A DNA stretch of 64,000 nucleotides from Jiangella sp. DSM 45060 (GTDB lineage: Bacteria > Actinomycetota > Actinomycetes > Jiangellales > Jiangellaceae): positions 2,046,001 through 2,110,000 of the forward strand of contig NZ_LT629771.1 in the NCBI RefSeq assembly GCF_900105175.1, read 5' to 3'. Positions 25,858-28,412 of the stretch are shown one piece after another. The notes beneath the pieces are model-generated. The model worked only from the letters and a program-made list of their open reading frames with translations. It did not search any database and was not told the DNA's origin. The position numbers were made by a program, and so were the translations under genes. Each line of letters begins with the position of its first letter. Within the stretch, counting starts at the first letter, position 1.

Positions 25858-25926
25858 CGGTCGTCGTCAGCGCGCCGGGGGATCGGCGAGGCCCCTACGG
25901 CCTGGTCGGGTACCGCCTGCCGCGCC

Positions 25927-26201
25927 TCGAGTGTGCGTCGGCGGCGTGGTGTCTCGGTTGCGTGTCGTGCGTGCGTGGCGGGGTGGCTGGACCCCTCCCG
26001 GCCCGGGTGGGGCCCACCCTATGGGCGGGCGCCGACAACGTCGCTGCGAACCAGCCGCGTGCCCGGCGTCGAGTGTGCGTCGGCGGCCTGGTGTCTCGGC
26101 GGCGTGTCGTGTCGTGCGGGCGTGGCGGGGTGGCTGGACCCCTCCCGGCCCGGGTGGGGCCCACCCTATGGGCGGGCACCGACAACGTCGCGGCGAACCA
26201 C
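25927..26201 (+). repeat. Two tandem copies of dispersed GC-rich repeat, type B
   Basis: Two direct copies of a 142-147-bp unit begin at TCGAGTGTGCGTCGGCGG (25927 and 26069) and each contains ACCCCTCCCGGCCCGGG (25991 and 26138), the core CCCACCCTATGGGCGGGC and a tail GACAACGTCG. The second copy has a five-base insertion. They fill the gap between the convergent TetR and ThrRS genes. The tail distinguishes this subtype from type A near 3.0 and 48.7 kb. Confidence 0.85.
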
Positions 26202-26367: not shown

Positions 26368-27579
26368 TCACCAGAGGTCGGGCACGTAGGCCGACGCGCG
26401 GGCGGAGAGGCGGCTGACGGCCTCGGCGGAGGGCATCGGCTCGAGCTGACGGCCGTCCCGAAGGCGCAGCGCCACCGCGTCCGCCGCGACCTCCCGTGCG
26501 CCGGCCACCACGACGTACGGGGCGAGGCGGGCGGCGTGGATGCGTGCGCCGACGCTGCCCTCGTCCGCCCCGGCGACCGACACGCGCAGCCCGGCGTCCA
26601 AGCACCGGGCGGCTAGGCCGCGCGCGAACGCGTCCTGCTCCGGCCCGACCGGCACCAGCACCACCTGCACGGGTGCCAGCCACGGCGGGAACGCGCCGCC
26701 GTGCACCTCGATCAGCTGCGCGACCGCCCGTTCCAGGCTGCCGATGATGCTCCGGTGCACCATGACCGGCCGGTGCCGGCCACCGTCGGCGCCGACGTAG
26801 CCGAGGTCGAAGCGGGCCGGCTGGTGGAAGTCGATCTGGACGGTCGACAGGGTCGACTCGCGCCCGGCGGCGTCGGCGATCTGCACGTCGACCTTGGGGC
26901 CGTAGAACGCCGCCTCGCCCTCCTCGGCCTCGTGCGACAGGCCGGCCGCGGACAGCGCCTCGACCAGCAGCGCCGCCGACCGCTCCCAGTCAGGCGGCGC
27001 GCCCGCGTACTTGCCGCCGGCGTCGGGCAGCGAGAGTCGCACCCGCACGGGCTCGATCCCCATCGCCGCGTGGGCGGAGCGGATCAGTGCCAGCGCGGCG
27101 GCCGCCTCCTCCGCGGCCGACGAGACCGGGCAGAAGACGTGCGCGTCGTTGAGCTGGATGGACCGCACCCGGGTCATGCCGCCGAGCACGCCGGACGGCT
27201 CGGAGCGGTACATGCCGCCGAGCTCGGCCAGCCGCAATGGCAGCTCCCGATAGGACCGCCCGCGGGAGCGGTAGATGAGCGCGTGGTGCGGGCAGAGGCT
27301 CGGCCGCAGCACGAGTTCCTCCCCGCCGACGGGCATCGGCGGGAACATGTCGTCGCGGTAGTGCGACCAGTGGCCGGAGAGCTCGTACAGCTCGCGCTTG
27401 CCGAGGGCGGGGGAGTGGACGTGCTGGTAGCCGGCTCGCCGCTCGATGGCGTGGACGTACTCCTCGAGCGCGTGGCGGACGGCGGCGCCGGCGGGCAGCC
27501 AGTACGGCAGGCCGGCGCCGATGAGCGGGTCGGAGCCGAACAGCTCCAGCTCGCGGCCGAGTTTGCGGTGGTCGGGCAT
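26368..27579 (-). CDS. Truncated-architecture threonyl-tRNA synthetase (catalytic plus anticodon domains only)
   Basis: A 403-residue class II synthetase starting at MPDHRKLGRELELF, exactly where the catalytic core of full-length (about 640-residue) ThrRS begins. The TGS and editing domains are therefore absent. Motif 2 (YRSEPSGVLGGMTRVR) and motif 3 (HRSIIGSLERAVAQLIE) are intact, and the zinc ligands are conserved (Cys in LRPSLCPHH, His in NDAHVFC, His in VMVHRS). The anticodon-binding domain follows (VQVVLVPVGPEQ onward). Start 27579 has GGGAG upstream. It is probably a second, non-editing ThrRS; such enzymes serve in zinc scarcity or antibiotic resistance in other bacteria. A threonine attenuator precedes it. 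Confidence 0.9.
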   Translation of the reverse strand: MPDHRKLGRELELFGSDPLIGAGLPYWLPAGAAVRHALEEYVHAIERRAGYQHVHSPALGKRELYELSGHWSHYRDDMFPPMPVGGEELVLRPSLCPHHALIYRSRGRSYRELPLRLAELGGMYRSEPSGVLGGMTRVRSIQLNDAHVFCPVSSAAEEAAAALALIRSAHAAMGIEPVRVRLSLPDAGGKYAGAPPDWERSAALLVEALSAAGLSHEAEEGEAAFYGPKVDVQIADAAGRESTLSTVQIDFHQPARFDLGYVGADGGRHRPVMVHRSIIGSLERAVAQLIEVHGGAFPPWLAPVQVVLVPVGPEQDAFARGLAARCLDAGLRVSVAGADEGSVGARIHAARLAPYVVVAGAREVAADAVALRLRDGRQLEPMPSAEAVSRLSARASAYVPDLW

Positions 27580-27619
27580 GTGGTCTCCCTGGGAAGGGGG
27601 ACGAGTGACCGCGGCGGCG

Positions 27620-27643
27620 CGCCCGGGGCACTCGCCCCGGGCG
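27620..27643 (-). terminator. Attenuator hairpin upstream of the short ThrRS gene
   Basis: On the minus strand CGCCCGGGGC-GAGT-GCCCCGGGCG forms a perfect 10-bp stem with a four-base loop, 13 bases after the leader peptide stop and 41 bases before the ThrRS start. No U-run follows, which is common in GC-rich actinobacteria. Its 5' arm (27634-27640) can instead pair with leader bases 27664-27670 (GUCCCGG with CCGGGGC), the arrangement expected of an antiterminator. Confidence 0.65.
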
Positions 27644-27655
27644 GTCGAACAGGAG

Positions 27656-27706
27656 TCAGCGCGCCGGGACGGTGTCCGGCGTCGTCGTCGCGTAGGCGCG
27701 CTGCAT
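27656..27706 (-). CDS. Threonine-rich leader peptide of the ThrRS attenuator
   Basis: A 16-codon reading frame, MQRAYATTTPDTVPAR, has four Thr codons, three of them consecutive (ACG ACG ACG, 27688 down to 27680). Codons 2-4 (CAGCGCGCC, 27703-27695) are perfectly complementary to the end of the frame (GGCGCGCTG, 27665-27657), giving a 9-bp 1:2 stem around the Thr codons. Ribosome stalling at the Thr codons would mask arm 1 and free arm 2 to pair with the attenuator's 5' arm. There is no strong Shine-Dalgarno, so translation from a near-leaderless transcript is possible. A longer in-frame reading of the ThrRS from 27723 overlaps this frame but has no conserved content. Confidence 0.65.
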   Translation of the reverse strand: MQRAYATTTPDTVPAR

Positions 27707-27766
27707 GCCGCCGAAGGTAGCATCCGGCGGACGGCGTCCGCGCCTGGATTTCCGCCCCTCCACCGA

Positions 27767-27787
27767 ATCCTACTGAATTGGTAGGAT
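27767..27787. promoter_or_regulatory. Palindrome containing back-to-back -10 elements
   Basis: ATCCTAC-TGAATTG-GTAGGAT is a perfect 7-bp inverted repeat with a 7-bp centre. TAGGAT appears at its end on both strands (plus 27782-27787, minus 27772-27767) and fits a TAnnnT -10 in each direction. It sits 32 bp before the FMN reductase gene and 60 bp before the ThrRS leader. A dimeric regulator bound here would block both promoters. Confidence 0.55.
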
Positions 27788-27818: not shown

Positions 27819-28412
27819 ATGCCGGCTGAGCAGCACGATCGCCCCGTCGACCTGGTGGTGCTGACGGCGGGGACGGCGCCGTCGTCGCGCATCCGGGCGG
27901 TCGCGGCGGCGTTCGCCGTCGAGCTGGCCGGCCGGCTGCCGCGGCCGCCGGTCTGGCGCGACGTCGTCGACCTGACGGCGCACGTGCCCGACCTCGCCGG
28001 CGTGCCGTCGGCCGGGGTCGCGGAGCTGGTCGACGCCGTCCTGACGGCCGACGTCGTGGTGCTGGCGACGCCGGTCAGTCGCGCGTCGTTCACCGGGGTG
28101 CTCAAGTTGTTCCTCGACCGCCTGCCCGACGCCGCGCTCGCCGGCACCGTCGTCGTCCCGGTGACGCTGTCGCGCGACCCGGCCGAGCGGCACGCCGCCG
28201 ACCGTCAGCTGCGCCCCGTCCTCGACAGCCTCGGCGCCGCGCTGCCCGTCGCGTCGTTCGTCGTCGACGAGACCGAGCTGGCCGACGTCGCGGCGCTGGC
28301 CGACGCGTGGACGCGGCGGCACGCCGGGCTGGTGGCGGCCGCGGTGACCGAGCTCAGGCGGCCGTCCGCTCGCTGCGATACCGGCCCGGCGGCCGGGCGT
28401 ACTCGCGCTTGA
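27819..28412 (+). CDS. NADPH-dependent FMN reductase-like flavoprotein
   Basis: A 197-residue protein of the flavodoxin-like FMN_red family. It has VDLVVLTAGTAPSSRIRAVAAAFAVEL for phosphate binding at the N-terminus, ADVVVLATPVSRASFTGVLKLFLDRLP (the family's flavin and substrate loop) and a C-terminal helix. Such enzymes supply reduced FMN to two-component monooxygenases or reduce quinones; the SsuE/MsuE-like architecture suggests sulfur-compound metabolism, which is inference. The last 59 bases overlap the 3' end of the convergent AraC gene, and the C-terminal 20 residues are unconserved-looking, Arg/Ala-rich sequence. Confidence 0.82.
   Translation: MPAEQHDRPVDLVVLTAGTAPSSRIRAVAAAFAVELAGRLPRPPVWRDVVDLTAHVPDLAGVPSAGVAELVDAVLTADVVVLATPVSRASFTGVLKLFLDRLPDAALAGTVVVPVTLSRDPAERHAADRQLRPVLDSLGAALPVASFVVDETELADVAALADAWTRRHAGLVAAAVTELRRPSARCDTGPAAGRTRA

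Follow-up and report, generated by a model that had tools for sequence, protein, structure and literature searches.

The question raised by this locus is how a bacterium that possesses a full-length threonyl-tRNA synthetase (ThrRS) controls a second, shortened copy, and whether the Thr-rich leader ahead of that copy takes part in the control. The earlier note described positions 27620–27706 of the window (the whole analyzed stretch of 64,000 nucleotides from the 7.49-Mb genome of Jiangella sp. DSM 45060) as a complete threonine attenuator that follows the 1:2, 2:3, 3:4 pairing scheme of the trp and thr operons. The observation is confirmed to lie beyond chance and its interpretation is partly supported: the leader and the 1:2 and 3:4 pairings are conserved, whereas a hairpin that covers the Shine-Dalgarno (SD) site of the synthetase (hairpin S) and an additional helix (helix B) had been overlooked. 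Quite probably, the element is a threonine attenuator that works through the leader ribosome and controls a second ThrRS without an editing domain, which would be induced when Thr-tRNA is short. Its features, in the order of transcription, are as follows.

27714–27719, minus strand: -10-like box TACCTT, 7 nt 5′ of the leader ATG, consistent with a leaderless start (sequence).
27656–27706, minus strand: leader open reading frame, MQRAYATTTPDTVPAR followed by a stop codon (sequence, conservation across loci).
27695–27703, minus strand: arm 1, CAGCGCGCC (complementarity; pairing run longer than in synonymous-codon controls).
27657–27670, minus strand: arm 2, GTCCCGGCGCGCTG, partner of arm 1 or, through its 5′ part, of arm 3 (sequence, conservation).
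27634–27643, minus strand: arm 3, the 5′ strand of hairpin T (complementarity, folding, conservation).
27620–27629, minus strand: arm 4, the 3′ strand of hairpin T, without a following U-run (complementarity, folding).
27629–27636, minus strand: 5′ strand of helix B, GGCGAGTG, at the top of hairpin T, loop included (covariation across loci).
27600–27607, minus strand: 3′ strand of helix B, CACTCGTC, overlapping the 5′ side of hairpin S (covariation across loci).
27582–27610, minus strand: hairpin S over the SD site, GGTC 27610–27607 with GACC 27585–27582 and TCCC 27601–27598 with GGGA 27589–27586 (folding, covariation).
27585–27589, minus strand: SD site GGGAG of the synthetase (sequence; paired probability 0.95).
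26368–27579, minus strand: auxiliary ThrRS of 403 aa, made up of just the catalytic and anticodon-binding domains (profile, homologues).

The auxiliary ThrRS matches the thrS model TIGR00418 with 409 bits (cut-off 383.65) over model positions 172–563 of 565, and its alignment starts at residue 242–249 of the full-length solved bacterial ThrRS chains. Judged by the domain borders of ThrRS, the protein lacks the N-terminal and editing domains, in agreement with the earlier description of a truncated, non-editing enzyme. It shares 93% identity with the short ThrRS of Jiangella muralis. C334, H385 and H511, the zinc ligands, and R363 and R520, the class II arginines (E. coli numbering), are kept in 81/81 short ThrRSs, which suggests that the short enzyme is likely to be active.

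The window genome contains a second, full-length ThrRS. Among the 35 genomes searched for thrS, a full-length ThrRS is present in 32/32 of those with the short ThrRS, and the three genomes chosen as lacking the short form contain one thrS copy each. In a class sample of 393 genomes, 60 genomes match the RNA model of the element (E up to 0.01), 60 contain a match to the short ThrRS (E up to 1e-130) and 57 have both. In these 57 genomes, which represent 16 genera, the element lies on the same contig and strand, 21–353 nt upstream of the protein match; one of them, G196, has a weak RNA match (E 0.006). Where the two do not overlap, a contig edge is involved in G234 and G291, G035 and G376 have weak RNA matches (E about 0.01), and the upstream DNA in G152 is only about 110 nt long. 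In G200, a diverged relative (58% identity), a diverged leader (MARLHHLTTTPGTVTRRAAA followed by a stop codon) that keeps a run of three Thr residues stands behind a TAnnnT box. Despite its differing sequence, this locus has a G+C hairpin, and its SD site is covered by a hairpin of GGGCTCC with GGAGCCC. The window genome itself yields a single RNA-model match, and no leader of this kind is seen at its full-length thrS in the stretch inspected. Within the matches of this sample, the link between the element and the short ThrRS is near-exclusive.

The leader is a minus-strand open reading frame of 16 codons that extends from the ATG at 27706 to the TGA at 27656, and the three consecutive ACG codons reported in the earlier note occupy 27688–27680. 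The window was compared with 80 homologous loci (the best 80 of 295), and a leader peptide of the form M(K/Q)R...TTTPE.VPAR, followed by a stop codon, is present in 78 of the resulting 81. The leader statistics cover these 78; the other three are L044, at a contig edge with 20 nt of upstream sequence, and two loci that keep the enzyme without the leader. One of the two, L035, retains hairpin T and the tail behind it while the leader is replaced by unrelated sequence, which amounts to a natural leader loss; the other, L015, has neither the leader nor hairpin T and the tail. The regulatory Thr codons read ACG ACG ACG in 74 of the 78 leaders, ACT ACG ACG in three and ACC ACG ACG in one, and the arms are conserved as well, whereas leader and arms that vary among orthologous loci had been named as grounds for rejecting the attenuator. 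A transcription start downstream of 27706 had been named as another. A TAnnnT box precedes the leader start codon in 78/78 of the leaders found, at 6 nt in 12 loci and at 7 nt in 66, which points to the leader ATG as the likely transcription start. The presence of the box is partly by construction, since the search rule demanded a TAnnnT box at 5–9 nt, but the tight spacing of 6–7 nt was not demanded; it implies that the leader is probably translated from a leaderless transcript.

An N-terminally extended ThrRS starting at the in-frame ATG at 27723 was considered and rejected, because the distance from the leader stop codon to the synthetase falls into each of the three frames when the loci are compared. 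Around the locus, a perfect 7-bp inverted repeat, ATCCTAC-N7-GTAGGAT (27767–27787), lies between the leader promoter and a divergent open reading frame (27819–28412) and looks like the operator of a regulator; a similar sequence occurs in the upstream region of the Jiangella locus L007. Just downstream of the short thrS, a 147-bp G+C-rich unit is repeated twice in tandem at 25913–26200 (90% matches), followed by an array of units of about 23 bp up to 26341.

The arms at 27695–27703 and 27657–27665 are 9 nt long and 100% complementary, as claimed. Folding of the leader segment that includes the 1:2 pairing gives a z score of -2.2, and 5/200 shuffles fold as well. In the 78 leaders, the pairing run between arms 1 and 2 has a mean of 8.6 pairs, compared with 5.6 in controls in which codons 2–5 are swapped for synonymous G/C-ending codons, and at least 7 pairs are found in 73; L023 scores low in this test, as its arm 2 is taken from a frameshifted end. 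Measured against synonymous codons, the 1:2 pairing is under selection at the RNA level, beyond the demands of the peptide. The gap between the last Thr codon and arm 2 is 9 nt in 76/78 leaders. The edge of the ribosome footprint lies about 12 nt past the start of the A-site codon, so a ribosome that pauses on the first, second or third Thr codon would leave arm 2 just free.

Within these 9 bases, the first five are near-invariant and the last four are variable. The former are CCGGA (27679–27675 in the window, Pro and Glu/Asp), with 77–78/78 conservation per base, and lie outside arms 1 and 2. RNAalifold predicts a small hairpin, GCCGG/CCGGC, in which CCGGC falls within arm 2. This predicted hairpin could explain the conservation of CCGGA, and so could the peptide, which would count against a purely RNA-based view.

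Hairpin T is formed by the arms at 27620–27629 and 27634–27643, which are 10 nt long, 100% complementary, as claimed, and separated by a 4-nt loop. Its folding energy is -24.7 kcal/mol (z -4.2) and 0/200 shuffles fold as well. Between the hairpin and the start of the synthetase at 27579 lie 40 nt rather than the 41 bases given before. The stem had also been called terminator-like. No U-run follows it in the window, where the next 12 nt are CGCCGCCGCGGT, so that Rho-independent termination is not established. The covariation of hairpin T, helix B and the 2:3 pairing was scored on an alignment of 52 of the 78 sequences, the other 26 including seven with an ambiguous tail. For hairpin T, 93.2% of cells are paired and five pairs are changed on both sides; of 500 shuffles, two reach the paired percentage and one the changed-pair count. 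When slid by +1, the hairpin gives five two-sided pairs as well, in more such cells (16 vs 8), so the pairing is conserved and its covariation is modest. The 2:3 pairing GTCCCGG/CCGGGGC, with one G-U pair, exists in the window as proposed and pairs in 98.6% of cells. It is near-invariant and shows no covariation; the covariation check recommended in the earlier note therefore neither supports nor refutes it, and folding does not favor it.

Helix B pairs GGCGAGTG, from the apex and loop of hairpin T, with CACTCGCC a short way downstream. It is paired in 96.6% of cells, with four pairs changed on both sides, and on each of five measures it is reached by 0/500 shuffles. It also scores well clear of every slide control, a comparison in which helix B is favored because the tail site was located by its likeness to CACTCGC; the shuffles are free of this bias. 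A permutation test gives 0/10000 on 71/78 loci, the other seven having another loop length, and 60/10000 on 32 unique rows; relatedness inflates this and the following permutation test. On the alignment of 52 sequences, RNAalifold picks helix B over hairpin T, with a covariation term of just -0.37 of -23.79 kcal/mol. The outer helix of hairpin S gives 0/5000 on the 54/78 loci with anchors (the other 24 are without) and 7/5000 on 33 unique arm pairs. Over 78 loci, the SD site has a mean paired probability of 0.73 vs 0.54 in shuffles (mean z -1.70, below -1 in 52/78), with SD sites located by a motif rule whose single assignments may be off. In the window itself, hairpin S is weak (z -0.57 and -0.40 in two folding runs). 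In these alignments, helix B covaries more clearly than hairpin T, and hairpin S covaries too.

The following working model is proposed. Transcription would begin at the leader ATG, and translation would initiate there as well, without an SD site. With ample Thr-tRNA, the ribosome would reach the stop codon and cover arm 2, allowing hairpin T to form, and hairpin S would hide the SD site of the synthetase, leaving the gene off. When Thr-tRNA is scarce, because threonine is lacking or because the housekeeping ThrRS is poisoned or overloaded, the ribosome would stall on the ACG codons and block arm 1, and the free arm 2 would capture arm 3 and disturb hairpin T. The top strand of hairpin T could then pair with CACTCGCC to form helix B, which competes with hairpin S, so that the SD site would be exposed and the gene turned on.

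Static folding of the 78 loci reproduces neither the switch of hairpin T nor the release of the SD site. The lowest-energy structure contains hairpin T in 74/78, 76/78 and 76/78 loci when the ribosome is placed on the first Thr codon, the third Thr codon and the stop codon, respectively, and the SD site is paired at 0.74, 0.73 and 0.73 in the same three states. Forcing the 2:3 pairing costs 11.1 kcal/mol on average relative to the free fold, and no SD release is found on forcing it in these loci (SD paired 0.74; a drop of more than 0.2 in 1/78). In classical attenuators the 2:3 pairing is also the weaker one and forms since it is transcribed first, and a kinetic account may thus rescue the switch of hairpin T. 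The SD branch of the model has the covariation of helix B as its one line of evidence. Work cited in PMC1262725 counts against the model, as changes of the regulatory codons of S. coelicolor ilvB had no effect.

The missing U-run, the SD-covering hairpin and helix B together indicate that control may act on translation, either alongside termination or in its place, and two narrower readings take one side each. It is possible, although on balance unlikely, that the locus works by classical transcription attenuation only, with hairpin T as a U-less intrinsic terminator and hairpin S and helix B incidental. The strong GC stem of hairpin T and its conserved pairing fit this reading, and intrinsic termination without a U-run is reported for actinobacteria. 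However, it leaves the covariation of S and the clearer covariation of B without a role, together with the SD-covering hairpin that the diverged G200 has of its own. The authors who studied S. lividans name its thrL leader an attenuator and at the same time call termination "not clear" (PMC8079986, section on this leader). A purely translational switch, in which hairpin T never terminates and the position of the leader ribosome sets the folding of T, B and S and hence the access of the ribosome to the SD site (or of Rho), we regard as possible but doubtful. The absent U-run, the pairing of the SD site with its covariation and helix B all speak for it, and PMC1262725 gives actinobacterial precedents, namely T-boxes that act on ileS at the level of translation and the LEU pseudoknot, in which the SD site is paired; against it, the predicted folding keeps the SD site closed both on stalling and when 2:3 is forced.

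An arrest peptide, in which the nascent TTTPE.VPAR itself stalls the ribosome with or without a Thr shortage, is improbable. The peptide looks conserved and CCGGA outside the arms is near-invariant, but the small predicted hairpin offers another explanation for the latter. L023 moreover retains GTCCCGGCGCGCTGA, the arm 2 RNA, though it is out of frame there, the peptide of L058 is TTTSDFPAR, shorter by one codon, and the four bases after CCGGA vary. Hardly credible is a T-box, a riboswitch or a mimic of the ThrRS operator. Precedents for thrS exist in Firmicutes and E. coli; at this locus, in contrast, an Rfam search (E up to 5) returns no match at gathering level, none to a T-box family and one irrelevant match (E 3.2), and the GAGT loop of hairpin T lacks a CGU anticodon-like triplet. 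The ribosome-mediated attenuator is the preferred reading.

One extension concerns the inducer. It is conceivable, though rather unlikely, that T, B and S form a relay without a terminator, in which the stalled leader ribosome leads to SD exposure and the short enzyme serves as an inducible bypass: once the housekeeping ThrRS is blocked by a natural inhibitor, for instance borrelidin, the fall in Thr-tRNA would switch on a short ThrRS that tolerates the inhibitor. The evidence that the short ThrRS would tolerate such inhibitors is mixed. At the borrelidin-contact positions named in PMC4389257 (converted from human to E. coli numbering), the short ThrRS has S for M332 in 80/81, L for Q381 in 81/81, Q for L489 in 81/81 and H at S488 in 79/81. 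Against tolerance, the housekeeping ThrRSs of Jiangella and G196 also have Q at 489, the ThrRS of S. aureus also has L at 381, and H309 (80/81) and G463 (81/81), at which changes are reported to give resistance, are unchanged. In addition, G355 has a ThrRS that resembles the borrelidin producer's own copy, yet also keeps the short ThrRS.

That ThrRS of G355 (L124) is a third, full-length one with SGHLPYY, HYGPK and DLYTP, alongside the short and housekeeping ThrRSs, and its residues fit those named for the producer's own enzyme in PMC4389257. The comparison of full-length ThrRS residues, which covers the sequences other than L127, also places Q at E. coli position 489 in the Jiangella full-length ThrRSs L118 and L131, which read IHSAKFGS vs IHRALFGS in most others shown.

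If the relay reading holds, the locus would be a threonine counterpart of the auxiliary TrpRS/indolmycin system, and if the backup enzyme tolerates ThrRS inhibitors, these bacteria would have an inducible way of their own to evade such antibiotics. Apart from this, a threonine leader is kept with one backup synthetase across the 57 genomes and 16 genera of the class sample, and its covarying RNA design is testable by a few point mutations. The locus also raises the matter of how cells cope with a ThrRS lacking the domain that clears mischarged serine.

Compared with known systems, the rarity suggested in the earlier note is overstated, because attenuators with a leader peptide have been published for trpS, leuS, alaS and thrS of Streptomyces (PMC1262725 and PMC8079986), this type of thrS leader among them. 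Section 14 and Table 4 of PMC8079986 (2021) describe thrL (SLIV_19412; MKRVRPFLETTPGFVPAR followed by a stop codon) ahead of thrS (SLIV_19410) in S. lividans TK24, found with RNA-seq as leaderless, with one hairpin and no U-run; trpL2 ahead of trpS is described there as leaderless, too. The likeness to the present locus lies in a leaderless Thr leader of the type MKR..TTP..VPAR with a stop codon, a hairpin without a U-run and thrS downstream, and the exact thrL peptide stands ahead of a short ThrRS in the Streptomyces genome G520. In contrast to the present locus, the S. lividans account deals with one genome and two Thr codons, and its section 14 contains no mention of the arms, the SD hairpin, the loop-tail helix, the short ThrRS or a wider conservation. 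Such a thrS leader was found in the literature only in PMC8079986 and not in the available parts of PMC1262725, PMC2965389 and PMC4833913, in a search mostly outside subscription journals.

For Actinobacteria, PMC1262725 describes attenuators of trpS and leuS as well as the LEU pseudoknot, whereas ahead of threonine operons it reports no RNA structure that is conserved. Like this locus, the LEU element upstream of actinobacterial leuA has a single 5′ region that combines a leader open reading frame with pairing of the pseudoknot type and pairing of the SD site; compared by description, however, its Leu codon run pairs with the SD site, whereas the SD pairing here lies in a separate 3′ hairpin. 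The second, editing-poor ThrRS T2 of Anabaena is stress-induced according to PMC4787780, but its induction is by zinc limitation via Zur and it keeps a degenerate editing domain.

The auxiliary indolmycin-resistant TrpRS of S. coelicolor is likewise a second, leader-controlled synthetase beside the housekeeping one. Its control is reportedly a ribosome-mediated attenuation, as the title of the 2010 work of Vecchione and Sello says; unlike it, the present enzyme serves a different amino acid, is truncated and has a putative resistance only. This kind of leader is therefore not new, and what the present locus adds is its breadth, the auxiliary-enzyme context, the SD hairpin and the covarying helix.
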